Shown here: piece by piece, positions 21,500 to 56,876 of the stretch
How positions within the stretch are numbered: position 1 is the first letter of the stretch
Layout: the number at the start of each line of letters is the position of its first letter
Source: Paenisporosarcina sp. FSL H8-0542
GTDB taxonomy: Bacteria > Bacillota > Bacilli > Bacillales_A > Planococcaceae
Direction of reading: 5' to 3'
NCBI RefSeq assembly: GCF_038632915.1
Contig: NZ_CP152050.1
Location: 2,511,001-2,575,000 of the forward strand
Length of the DNA stretch: 64,000 nt
Position numbers and translations under genes: made by a program
The notes under the pieces: model-generated
What the model saw: only the letters and a program-made list of their open reading frames with translations
The model's database searches: none
What the model was told of the DNA's origin: nothing

Positions 21500-21775
21500 C
21501 CCAAAAATCAAAAAAGGCATATCGTCTCTTCCTTCACAATCAAATGAAGAAAGAGACGATATGCCTTAAGCTTACCGCGGTACCACTCTTATTGGCTCTT
21601 TACGAACCCTGCTTTAAAAACCTTGTAACGAAGGTCAATCGTTAAAATTAGAGAATAGATTAAATCTAAACTTTCACTTTACCACTCCTAGGCAAGTTCA
21701 AAGTATCATTGGACTGCGTTGCACCAACCCGCAGCTCTCTTTACCGAATAATGAGCTTTTACTACTCCTGATCTT
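21500..21775 (-). promoter_or_regulatory. T-box riboswitch leader, probably leucine
   Basis: On the minus strand the leader contains the stem I elements GCTGCGGGTTGGTGCAACG and GATACTTTGAACTTGCCTAG, the invariant T-box sequence AGAGTGGTACCGCGG, and a long terminator whose arms AAGGCATATCGTCTCTT and AGAGACGATATGCCTT end in TTTTTT. In the expected specifier position after GAA I read CTT, a leucine codon. Uncharged tRNA-Leu would favour the antiterminator and permit permease expression. Confidence 0.9.
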
Positions 21776-21854
21776 TGTGTTTTGAAAACTATATCTGATT
21801 TTTTTATAATATCCCATACTATACGGATTAGAAGTGAATTTGTCAATAATTATT

Positions 21855-54393: not shown

Positions 54394-55155
54394 TTATCTC
54401 ATAACTTTTGCCTTTATTAATCGATCACTAATTAATAAGTTCAACATCATGAAAATGAAAATAAGAACAAACGATGCAGCAGCGATAATCAATATTGTTT
54501 CGTCCTTTAAATTTGAAAAACGGTAAAAATAATCAGGTATGAACAATAACGTTGGTATCCAAATGGCTGAAAAAGTCTTACCCCAAAAGGCTAATAAGAT
54601 AAAAACTGCTACGCAAATTACTATAATGCCCAAGGTTACTATAGGGCTAGCTTTGTAGAACGGTTCTACTAGAAAGTTACTTCCTAACAAAAGAAGGATG
54701 AATAATGCAGTAACACTTGAACTGGCAATGATTCCAATAAAGAAGAGTTTCTTTGATGAATATTGATTTTTCCCAGCTTTTTGGAGCAAAAAAACATAAA
54801 TGAGTAGTCCAATTACTGAAATTATTGGAAACCCAATTAATTGAACAATGTTCAATTCAAATTCACCCCTAATTGCCGGTCCCATAATAAAATAAGCAAT
54901 AATCCCTAAAAAGTATATCGGAATGTTTTTCACAATACTTATATAATCTGTTTTCATCTCAAGCTTGATGGAGTCCATATAAGCTTCAGGAGTACCCCCG
55001 ACTATTTCATCTATACTCTTTCCACGCTTTTCAGATTCAATTAAATGATCACGCAATTCTTCTGTTACTTCTTTCACTTCGTTTTCATTTTTCCCTGAAG
55101 TGAGTAAGTACATTCGAAGGTTATCAATGAAATTCACACTTTTTGTTGTTAGCAT
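54394..55155 (-). CDS. HAAS-domain membrane protein, PadR partner
   Basis: The 253-residue product starts with a soluble helical HAAS/DUF1700-type domain (NENEVKEVTEELRDHLIESE, then IVGGTPEAYMDSIKLEM, about residues 5-70) followed by six membrane segments. Such proteins are regularly encoded beside PadR regulators and are thought to act as membrane sensors or anti-factors. Its ATG comes directly after the padR stop, so the two are co-translated. Confidence 0.75.
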   Translation of the reverse strand: MLTTKSVNFIDNLRMYLLTSGKNENEVKEVTEELRDHLIESEKRGKSIDEIVGGTPEAYMDSIKLEMKTDYISIVKNIPIYFLGIIAYFIMGPAIRGEFELNIVQLIGFPIISVIGLLIYVFLLQKAGKNQYSSKKLFFIGIIASSSVTALFILLLLGSNFLVEPFYKASPIVTLGIIVICVAVFILLAFWGKTFSAIWIPTLLFIPDYFYRFSNLKDETILIIAAASFVLIFIFMMLNLLISDRLIKAKVMR

Positions 55156-55506
55156 TTATTCCACTCCTTTGTTTATGTCATTATCAAATAAAGCATGCAC
55201 TGCCTGAGAAAGTTCTTTCCACCTTGCATGGTAATCAGCTAGTTCATCTTGCCCTGCTTCGGTGATTGTATAGTATTTTCGGTTCGGTCCATTTGGTGAA
55301 GCTTTCATTACTGTTGTGACCAGATTTTCTTTCTGCATCCTCATTAAAACAGGATAAATACTCCCTTCACTGACCATATTGAAACCAAAATCTTCTAATT
55401 TCTCAATCATTTCATATCCATACGTCTCTCCGCGTTTGATAATCGCCAACAAACAACCTTCCAAGATTCCTTTCAACATTTGGGTGGACGTAGCCAATAA
55501 ACTCAC
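55156..55506 (-). CDS. PadR-family transcriptional regulator
   Basis: The 116-residue protein has the PadR winged helix: LKGILEGCLLAIIKRGETYG YEMIEKLEDFGF, then GSIYPVLMRMQKENLVTT and NRKYYTITEAGQDELADY. It usually represses its own operon and a transporter or sensor gene; here the downstream HAAS-domain gene is the likely partner. GTG at 55506 is very close to the AAAGG site and a TTG four codons later is possible. Confidence 0.85.
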   Translation of the reverse strand: MSLLATSTQMLKGILEGCLLAIIKRGETYGYEMIEKLEDFGFNMVSEGSIYPVLMRMQKENLVTTVMKASPNGPNRKYYTITEAGQDELADYHARWKELSQAVHALFDNDINKGVE

Positions 55507-55657: not shown

Positions 55658-55688
55658 ATGTTCAACTAAAGCACCCGTTAGTTGAGCA
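55658..55688. repeat. R1 element, copy 27
   Basis: Single form with loop AGCACCCG. It lies between divergently transcribed genes, so it is not a 3'-end element here, yet has the same orientation as all others. Confidence 0.8.
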
Positions 55689-55698
55689 TTCATTAATT

Positions 55699-55780
55699 TA
55701 GATTGTTTCTAAAACTTCTTTTGCGAGTTCATCATATTCTTTGTGTGGGTGTTTCGTCCAAATACTTAATATTCTCTGCT
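55699..55780 (-). pseudogene. C-terminal gene fragment, possibly DUF5071
   Basis: The minus strand reads SIWTKHPHKEYDELAKEVLE and TI before TAA, similar to the tail YEELNEIAKEILDTI of the DUF5071 protein at 52.4 kb. No start codon. Confidence 0.4.
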
Positions 55781-55785
55781 ATAAT
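55777..55785 (+). promoter_or_regulatory. extended -10 promoter of the leader/exporter transcript
   Basis: TGCTATAAT is an extended -10. No good -35 is present, as is common for extended -10 promoters. It would start the RNA near 55792, 26 nt before the leader ribosome binding site. Confidence 0.5.
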
Positions 55786-55830
55786 AATACACATATATTT
55801 GAAGTTAGATTTGAACAGAGGTGAATCAAT

Positions 55831-55887
55831 ATGTATTGGACTCCATTATTTGAAAACGATGTACCAGTAGTACTCTTCTGCTCTTAA
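55831..55887 (+). CDS. 18-codon leader peptide of the EamA exporter
   Basis: ATG with GAGGTG at 7 nt spacing encodes MYWTPLFENDVPVVLFCS and ends with TAA, 71 bp before the exporter start. Codons 4-6 lie in the first pairing segment and the stop codon in the second. This is the position of ErmC/Cat-type leader peptides, where a stalled ribosome frees the downstream ribosome binding site. I do not know this peptide from a described case. Confidence 0.7.
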   Translation: MYWTPLFENDVPVVLFCS

Positions 55888-55950
55888 TGGAGTGAAGGTG
55901 ACTACATCTCTCCGTTAGGTGCATTTTCGACCTAAACAAAAGACGGAGGG
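55840..55950 (+). promoter_or_regulatory. translational attenuator (four pairing segments)
   Basis: Segment 1 ACTCCATTA (55840-55848) is the exact complement of segment 2 TAATGGAGT (55885-55893). Segment 3 CTCTCCGT (55908-55915) pairs over 8 bp with segment 4 ACGGAGGG (55943-55950), the exporter's ribosome binding site, with inner helix TTAGGT/ACCTAA. Segment 2 (AATGGAG) can instead pair with segment 3 (CTCCGTT). Occupying segment 1 therefore releases the ribosome binding site. Confidence 0.75.
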
Positions 55951-55958
55951 TACAAAAA

Positions 55959-56837
55959 ATGAAAAACAATACCTTATTAGGTTCATTATATTTAGTTTTA
56001 GCATCCAGTATTTGGGGCGGTATGTATGTTGTTGTTAAAGTTGTGGTATCTGTGATACCTCCACTCGAACTTGTGTGGATGCGATATTTAGTGGCAATTG
56101 TTGCACTTCTCGTTATCGGCTTCATAACACGACAAAACTGGCGAATTGAGAAACGTTATTTCTTATTAATCGTAGCTATTGGGGTCATTGGTAATGCGAT
56201 TTCAATTGTTGCTCAGGAAACTGGTACAATGCTATCCACAGCACAAATGGGAGCCATTATAACTTCTTCAACACCAGCATTTATGGTTATTTTTGCTCGC
56301 TTAATCCTTAAAGAACGTTTGACATTAAAAAAGGGAATCTCCGTTTGTTTAGCAACAATTGGAGTACTACTCATTGTTGGAATTGGTAATATGAGTATGT
56401 CCAGTACACTTGGTGGGATTTGGCTTCTTATTGCTGCTTTAACATGGGCACTCATGTCTGTACTTGTAAAAAAGTTGCCGAGTGATTATTCACAAATTGT
56501 GGTAACGACCTATTCTATATTGGTTGCCCTAATTGTATTGACCCCTTTTGTTTTGCCGCGGTTACACGAAATTAATATCTCTGAATTGACTCACCCGACT
56601 ATTTGGGGAGGACTTTTGTATTTGGGTGTTATCTCAACAGCAGTTGGATTTTTACTTTGGAATCGTGGATTGCAAATGCTTAACGCCTCAAATGGCGGGT
56701 TATTTTTCTTCTTTCAACCCGTGGTTGGAACATTACTTGGATGGCTTATTTTAGGCGAGAACATAGGTGTAACGTTTTGGATAGGATCTATCCTAATTCT
56801 CACTGGTGTTTTATTCGTTATTAACGAGAAAAATTAG
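55959..56837 (+). CDS. EamA/DMT-family exporter
   Basis: The 292-residue protein consists of two five-segment EamA halves (about residues 5-140 and 150-290) with typical SSIWGGMYVVVKVV and TWALMSVLVKKLPSDY. Such transporters export metabolites or drugs. ATG has CGGAGGG at 8 nt, but that site is part of a hairpin. The upstream leader peptide makes drug-inducible translation likely, so it may be a resistance exporter for a ribosome-targeting compound. A strong terminator follows. Confidence 0.85.
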   Translation: MKNNTLLGSLYLVLASSIWGGMYVVVKVVVSVIPPLELVWMRYLVAIVALLVIGFITRQNWRIEKRYFLLIVAIGVIGNAISIVAQETGTMLSTAQMGAIITSSTPAFMVIFARLILKERLTLKKGISVCLATIGVLLIVGIGNMSMSSTLGGIWLLIAALTWALMSVLVKKLPSDYSQIVVTTYSILVALIVLTPFVLPRLHEINISELTHPTIWGGLLYLGVISTAVGFLLWNRGLQMLNASNGGLFFFFQPVVGTLLGWLILGENIGVTFWIGSILILTGVLFVINEKN

Positions 56838-56842
56838 TATTA

Positions 56843-56876
56843 CAAAACCCCTTCAACCTTATTTGAAGGGGTTTTG
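56843..56876 (+). terminator. intrinsic terminator
   Basis: CAAAACCCCTTCAA, CCTTAT, TTGAAGGGGTTTTG. Ends the exporter transcript. Confidence 0.85.

Follow-up and report, generated by a model that had tools for sequence, protein, structure and literature searches.

The gene for an EamA exporter in Paenisporosarcina sp. FSL H8-0542 is preceded by a short leader ORF that probably acts as a translational attenuator, in which a ribosome arrested at the V-P junction of the peptide FExDVP would free the Shine-Dalgarno (SD) sequence of the exporter; on comparative sequence analysis and RNA folding, we put the probability of this reading at about 0.8. Selection on the leader ORF for the peptide F-E-x-D-V-P was shown at the level of codon change. 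According to the proposed model, when the ribosome is absent or has already passed, a leader hairpin (H1) and a second helix (C:D) would form and the exporter SD would be masked. A small molecule or another translation stress would arrest the ribosome at the point where the nascent chain ..FExDV occupies the P site and Pro-tRNA the A site; the footprint of this ribosome would open H1, so that segment B could pair with segment C, the SD would be freed and the exporter would be made. The trigger would most likely be the exporter's own substrate or a ribosome-targeting compound that the exporter removes, and we infer that the inducer may be either of them or both at once.

Within the 64,000 nucleotides of DNA analysed here (the window), the exporter gene lies at 55959-56837 on the + strand and encodes a 292-residue EamA protein of the DMT superfamily (Pfam PF00892, E 5e-50), for which no NCBIfam equivalog scored above its cut-off. 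An 18-codon ORF with its own ribosome binding site had been proposed in a preliminary description of this DNA and was confirmed in the sequence: MYWTPLFENDVPVVLFCS, at 55831-55887 on the + strand, begins with the ATG at 55831, ends with the TAA stop codon at 55885-55887 and is preceded by the SD GAGGTG (55818-55823, + strand), and the leaders of relatives have a similar purine-rich SD. This arrangement, a short leader ORF upstream of the gene with its own SD and with conserved start and stop, is that of the erm/cat kind of attenuator. A probable extended -10 promoter element, TGCTATAAT, was seen at 55777-55785 on the + strand; since the consensus promoter scan listed nothing at that place and a -35 match is absent, we rank it no higher than probable. 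A putative terminator-like hairpin was likewise seen 3' of the exporter (56846-56873, + strand), where the consensus scan listed none. The -10 element and the 3' hairpin together suggest that the exporter and its leader form a single-gene transcript.

Rfam (release 15) gave no match above the gathering score in the window leader, nor in the loci of seven relatives, and the sole Rfam match in the window was a T-box (RF00230) at 21549-21784 on the - strand, with 113.9 bits. Divergent from the leader, a PadR regulator and a HAAS-domain membrane protein are encoded at 54394-55506 on the - strand, with no sign of a link to the exporter. A REP-like hairpin repeat, AAGCACCCGTTAGTT, occurs at 55669-55683 and at 15 other places in the window; with up to two mismatches allowed, all 16 copies are on the + strand, versus 0.06 expected, and in a stricter form the repeat occurs 73 times in the genome, 39 times on one strand and 34 times on the other, with copies of the same strand following each other in long runs.

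The conservation of the leader was evaluated in 99 loci collected by similarity of the exporter protein alone (the best 80 of 311 relatives plus 19 more), a set in which the locus of the window itself and some duplicates are counted. In 91 of these 99 EamA-selected loci, corresponding to 87 distinct leaders, the exporter gene is preceded by a short ORF that has a ribosome-binding site and encodes the core F-E-x-D-[V/Q/H]-P. The F, E, D and P positions, found in all 87 and located in the window within the core F-E-N-D-V-P (codons 7-12, 55849-55866, + strand), had 75 synonymous versus 0 non-synonymous changes, a zero that is partly built in because the final leader-finding rule demanded F, E, D and P; under a looser rule that also accepted D at the E position and E at the D position, no such replacement was found. 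The residue after D was V in 84, Q in two and H in one of the 87, F was preceded by L in 78, and that L in turn by P in 74. The final rule found no leader in the remaining eight of the 99 loci (L059, L064, L065, L072, L092, L094, L097 and L099); L092 has the motif and lacks a clear start, and the other seven are mostly distant relatives. Among the best 80 of 311 relatives, the hosts include Bacillus, Neobacillus, Metabacillus, Paenibacillus, Lysinibacillus and Brevibacillus, as well as Alicyclobacillus, Sporolactobacillus, Sporomusa, Pelosinus and Desulfosporosinus. Because it ranges from Bacillus to Sporomusa and Desulfosporosinus, the leader is older and more widespread than resistance cassettes typically are. 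In L118, which comes from another genome of the same species as the window, the peptide is unchanged and the leader stop is TGA instead of TAA.

Genome DNA was also scanned for the pattern [LF]FE(x)DVP, with x restricted, in samples that overlap with each other. In 398 Bacilli genomes the motif was found at 44 places, 38 of which were leaders before an EamA gene; five of the other six lay inside longer frames and one was a 29-codon frame for which no downstream gene was found. The 261 genomes of the window's order had 54 motif places, namely 48 leaders and six chance occurrences, and the leaders preceded an EamA gene in 46 cases, a frame-broken EamA gene in one (L236) and none in one (L237); three of the contexts had already appeared among the EamA-selected loci, as L082, L085 and L086. 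L237 has no EamA gene within 1,500 bases and is perhaps a remnant left after gene loss. Four of 17 motif places were leaders in 398 genomes of the phylum, among them two new ones (L152 and L153), each before an EamA gene. The motif is nearly diagnostic for EamA genes in the scanned genomes. A loose pattern gave 22 places in the organism's own genome, where two 'FEIDQP' places 1 kb apart (L130) were rejected, as they are not short ORFs.

The region 55864-55961 folds with -30.9 kcal/mol (z -4.35), better than all of 200 shuffles. Four + strand elements account for the predicted switch. The 5' arm of hairpin H1 (55867-55884) covers codons 13-18, starting with the codon after Pro12, and its 3' arm (55889-55905) lies just past the stop codon; segment B, the anti-anti-SD, overlaps the stop codon (55883-55892); segment C, the anti-SD, lies at 55908-55919; and segment D (55942-55950) contains the exporter SD GGAGGG (55945-55950). 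Segment C can pair through 55908-55916 with 55942-55950, masking the SD in the default fold, or through 55910-55919 with B once H1 is open. Folding of the window sequence from 55864 gave H1 and C:D, and folding from 55882, which mimics a ribosome occupying the first arm, gave B:C.

These helices were evaluated by an arm-swap test, in which the duplex energy of a leader's own two arms was compared with that of arms swapped among 113 distinct leaders. For H1 the own arms gave -13.4 versus -9.7 kcal/mol for swapped ones. The pooled z values, which overstate the case because they include differences between clades, were -15.5 for H1, -13.7 for B:C, -7.3 for C:D and -3.5 for a stem between codons 4-6 and the post-stop sequence. 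Within clades, H1 had z values of -6.1 (clade I), -7.1 (clade II) and -6.4 (rest); B:C had -3.7 in clade I, -6.5 in the rest and +2.4 in clade II; and C:D had -3.5 in the rest, -1.5 in clade II and +2.0 in clade I. B:C in clade II and C:D in clade I were no better than swapped because those arms hardly vary, and a fourth clade of nine near-identical leaders was uninformative in this test. Within-clade co-variation consequently supports H1 in three clades, B:C in two and C:D in one, and pooled co-variation supports all three of these mutually exclusive helices, as expected of the erm/cat kind. In clade II, 20 of 32 leaders form H1 without gaps at 9 or more of its 11 positions, and both arms carry changes; the compensatory pairs include T-A/C-G at pair 2, A-T/C-G at pair 3, G-C/A-T/C-G at pair 4 and A-T/C-G/T-A at pair 7. 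RNAalifold, run on plain MAFFT alignments, missed H1; the helices that it returned were C:D for clade I and one resembling B:C for clade II.

The preliminary description had proposed three pairings, all of them present as letters: 55840-55848 with 55885-55893 (9 bp), 55908-55915 with 55943-55950, and 55886-55892 with 55910-55916. The last can be extended by eye to 10 pairs including G-U (55883-55892 with 55910-55919), and both the SD-masking helix C:D and its competitor B:C were upheld by the folds and by the pooled arm-swap test. The first stem was not: the unconstrained fold gave the hairpin 55867-55884 with 55889-55905 in place of 55840-55848 with 55885-55893, and the codon 4-6 stem was rejected because co-evolution was absent within clades (z -1.0, +2.0 and -1.3). 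Among the things that would speak against it, the same description had named a leader ORF without conservation and helices without compensatory changes in relatives; the leader is conserved in the EamA-selected loci, and compensatory changes were found in clade II for H1.

In an attempt to localise the ribosome position that would free the exporter SD, a ribosome footprint was masked at each codon of the 113 leaders and the accessibility of the SD was computed, considering the RNA only. Without a ribosome the SD was masked, with a mean accessibility of 0.10 (median 0.02; 0.00 in the window), again as in the erm/cat kind. For P-site positions up to three codons ahead of Pro the mean was still 0.07-0.13; it rose to 0.28 two codons before Pro, peaked at 0.36 when the P site held the Val codon and was 0.30 at Pro. 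The best position was Asp, Val or Pro in 88 of the 113 leaders, versus 17 of 113 when the post-stop spacer was shuffled (once per leader). With a footprint 3 nt shorter (57 of the 113 leaders) the optimum moved one codon downstream, which leaves an uncertainty of about one codon in the site. The conserved peptide core ends where the computed optimum lies. For the window, the predicted arrest has Val11 (55861-55863) as the P-site codon and Pro12 (55864-55866) as the A-site codon, on the + strand and within one codon either way; the predicted gain in SD accessibility is modest, from 0.00 to 0.27 with codon 11 in the P site. A stall on codons 4-9, as originally suggested, was rejected on these predictions, since accessibility in the window was 0.00-0.01 when the P site held any of codons 4-8 and 0.04 when it held codon 9.

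The same leader was found at two loci (L116 and L117) before an EamA protein just 23-26% identical to the window exporter. In 30 loci of this second subfamily, the leader was present in all eight at 73% identity or more and in none of the 22 at 60-66%, a split by identity indicating that gain, or loss, of the leader took place independently of the exporter protein. Seven of these eight leaders lie within 260 bases upstream of the gene, and the remaining one (L186, the same as L230) is farther away, behind an insert of about 250 bases. This insert has a match to the Rfam Bacillaceae-1 RNA at exactly the gathering score, and a second, stronger match lies elsewhere in the locus. In L181, L184 and L188, 30-35 bases separate the leader from the gene, and a single hairpin is formed between the SD and the codons that follow the motif (CCTTCG..). 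When Val was placed in the P site of these three leaders, mask folding predicted a rise in SD accessibility from 0.00-0.01 to 0.50-0.73, and later ribosome positions freed the SD equally well or better. L180 and L183 had little predicted SD opening at any ribosome position, and in L182 opening was predicted just one to two codons past Pro. The predictions for L180, L182 and L183, together with those for the one-hairpin loci, count against a uniform model.

The exporter and its leader were found on plasmids of Priestia megaterium, Bacillus badius and Niallia taxi, and a Selenomonas plasmid carries a relative 50% identical to the exporter without the leader. At E 1e-60 the exporter was absent from seven genomes of other species of the genus, and the window's species has it (also L118). 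No gene was conserved across the 114 loci compared, and the largest cluster occurred in 12, mostly close relatives. All this fits an exporter that moves as an independent unit. Carriage by viruses or phages found no support in viral_contigs, where no relative of the exporter occurred. A CsaA-like gene lies beside the exporter in L017, L024, L025, L027 and L055 (recognised by eye in all five) and, as annotated, in L176, which is the Priestia plasmid pBM500; csaA was the only recurring lead to a ligand that the gene neighbourhood offered. The B. subtilis relative of the exporter may be yoaV.

The erm-like logic first suggested for this EamA exporter is supported, together with a conserved, translated leader and competing RNA helices. 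Starvation for charged Pro or Val tRNA could stall the ribosome in the manner of an amino-acid attenuator; in favour of this, a Pro codon occupies the A site at the best de-repressing position, and none of the leaders found lacks this Pro. However, neither the window nor its relatives have a run of regulatory codons, only one invariant Pro codon; F, E and D vary no more than P does; each of the four Pro codons is in use (CCA 50, CCC 29, CCT 28 and CCG 8 of 115); and it would seem odd for starvation to control an exporter. Of the possible triggers, a starved aminoacyl-tRNA is the least likely, because Phe, Glu and Asp are required besides Pro and all four Pro codons occur, and we regard this explanation as improbable. 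A TnaC-like arrest at the leader stop codon would agree with the many leaders that end in Pro-stop (..ILP, ..LRP), yet others end in FCS, LLS, RY, HP and so on, the three stop codons are all used (TAA 75, TAG 20 and TGA 20 of 115) and a ribosome at the last sense codon gave no SD opening (mean 0.08 versus 0.10 without a ribosome), which makes arrest at termination highly improbable. The strong conservation of the peptide might reflect a small protein working in trans, for example on the exporter; however, its N- and C-terminal residues are variable and the C-terminal codons are tied to RNA pairing, so we give this explanation very little credence. That the RNA is a metal- or ligand-binding riboswitch, with the ORF incidental, could be argued from its strong co-evolving helices, but the codon-position pattern of change in the leader, the two different RNA architectures that carry the same peptide and the Rfam result all speak against it, and we find it scarcely credible.

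Several ribosome drugs that slow elongation might all induce the exporter, the motif being no more than a favourable pause, for which E. coli toiL, responsive to several antibiotic classes according to PMC12121999, is a precedent; an exporter found on plasmids, without conserved neighbours and absent from the seven other species of the genus searched would suit such a generic stress sensor. Four invariant residues with free synonymous change point instead to a specific interaction of the nascent chain, and we consider the generic explanation rather unlikely. The specific form of arrest at FExDVP, to which we give slightly less than an even chance, is that the motif is a portable, self-contained sensor of one specific small molecule, in which the nascent chain and the ribosome jointly recognise the own substrate of the controlled exporter. 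The peptide, and not the RNA, would then be the mobile unit of evolution, because it serves two subfamilies with different RNA switches. If this is true, whatever arrests FExDVP would reveal the substrate of these exporters.

To our knowledge, few nascent-peptide sensors are known, and we know of no substrate for most EamA exporters. Most known leader attenuators guard antibiotic-resistance or secretion genes. A cis-acting reporter firing on the inducer would make the substrate of EamA export directly screenable, and structural work could make use of so short an arrest motif, which is predicted to stop a chain of about 9-11 residues with Pro in the A site. Literature searches of main texts returned no description of this leader, and EamA or DMT was absent from the main texts searched for it among PMC11109978, PMC6429828, PMC8632094 and PMC11550727. 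The kind of attenuator is known from erm and cat; the arrest motif FExDVP is undescribed within the main texts searched.

The erm-type attenuators (ErmCL, ErmAL and ErmBL) have a short leader ORF, a stall that depends on drug or stress, and SD-masking versus SD-freeing helices, and they need no terminator. The FExDVP leader is alike in its short ORF and helix switch, with a stall that is predicted here, and differs in its arrest peptide and its target, an EamA exporter; in addition, its first hairpin comes after the arrest motif and includes the stop-codon region. It does not belong to the Erm leader family proper, which has an rRNA methyltransferase downstream, the gene here being EamA (PF00892). 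Attenuators of the cat86/catA type have a single hairpin, and L181, L184 and L188 resemble them in that one hairpin masks the SD and, as predicted, would be opened by the leader ribosome; the FExDVP loci differ in peptide and gene, and the one-hairpin form was seen, among the loci inspected, only in part of the second subfamily. In SecM and TnaC, Pro is a poor acceptor or the last residue of the arrest, and TnaC senses a metabolite; at its predicted arrest the FExDVP nascent chain would be much shorter, with about 9-11 residues, and no motif shared with SecM or TnaC was recognised.

Among the systems taken from the literature, bmrB-bmrCD of B. subtilis is likewise a Bacillus drug exporter under a leader peptide, and PMC4191407 describes transcriptional attenuation of this ABC exporter, whereas the FExDVP system would mask an SD. 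The uORFC-6-1 before hflX is likewise a uORF of Bacillales, predicted and thought to sense stalled ribosomes in PMC8632094; it is set apart by its gene, hflX versus EamA. In toiL of E. coli topAI, as presented in PMC12121999, a stall in the uORF frees a masked ribosome-binding site and different drug classes stall the ribosome at different positions; a ribosome-binding site freed by a stall is what toiL would share with the FExDVP leader.
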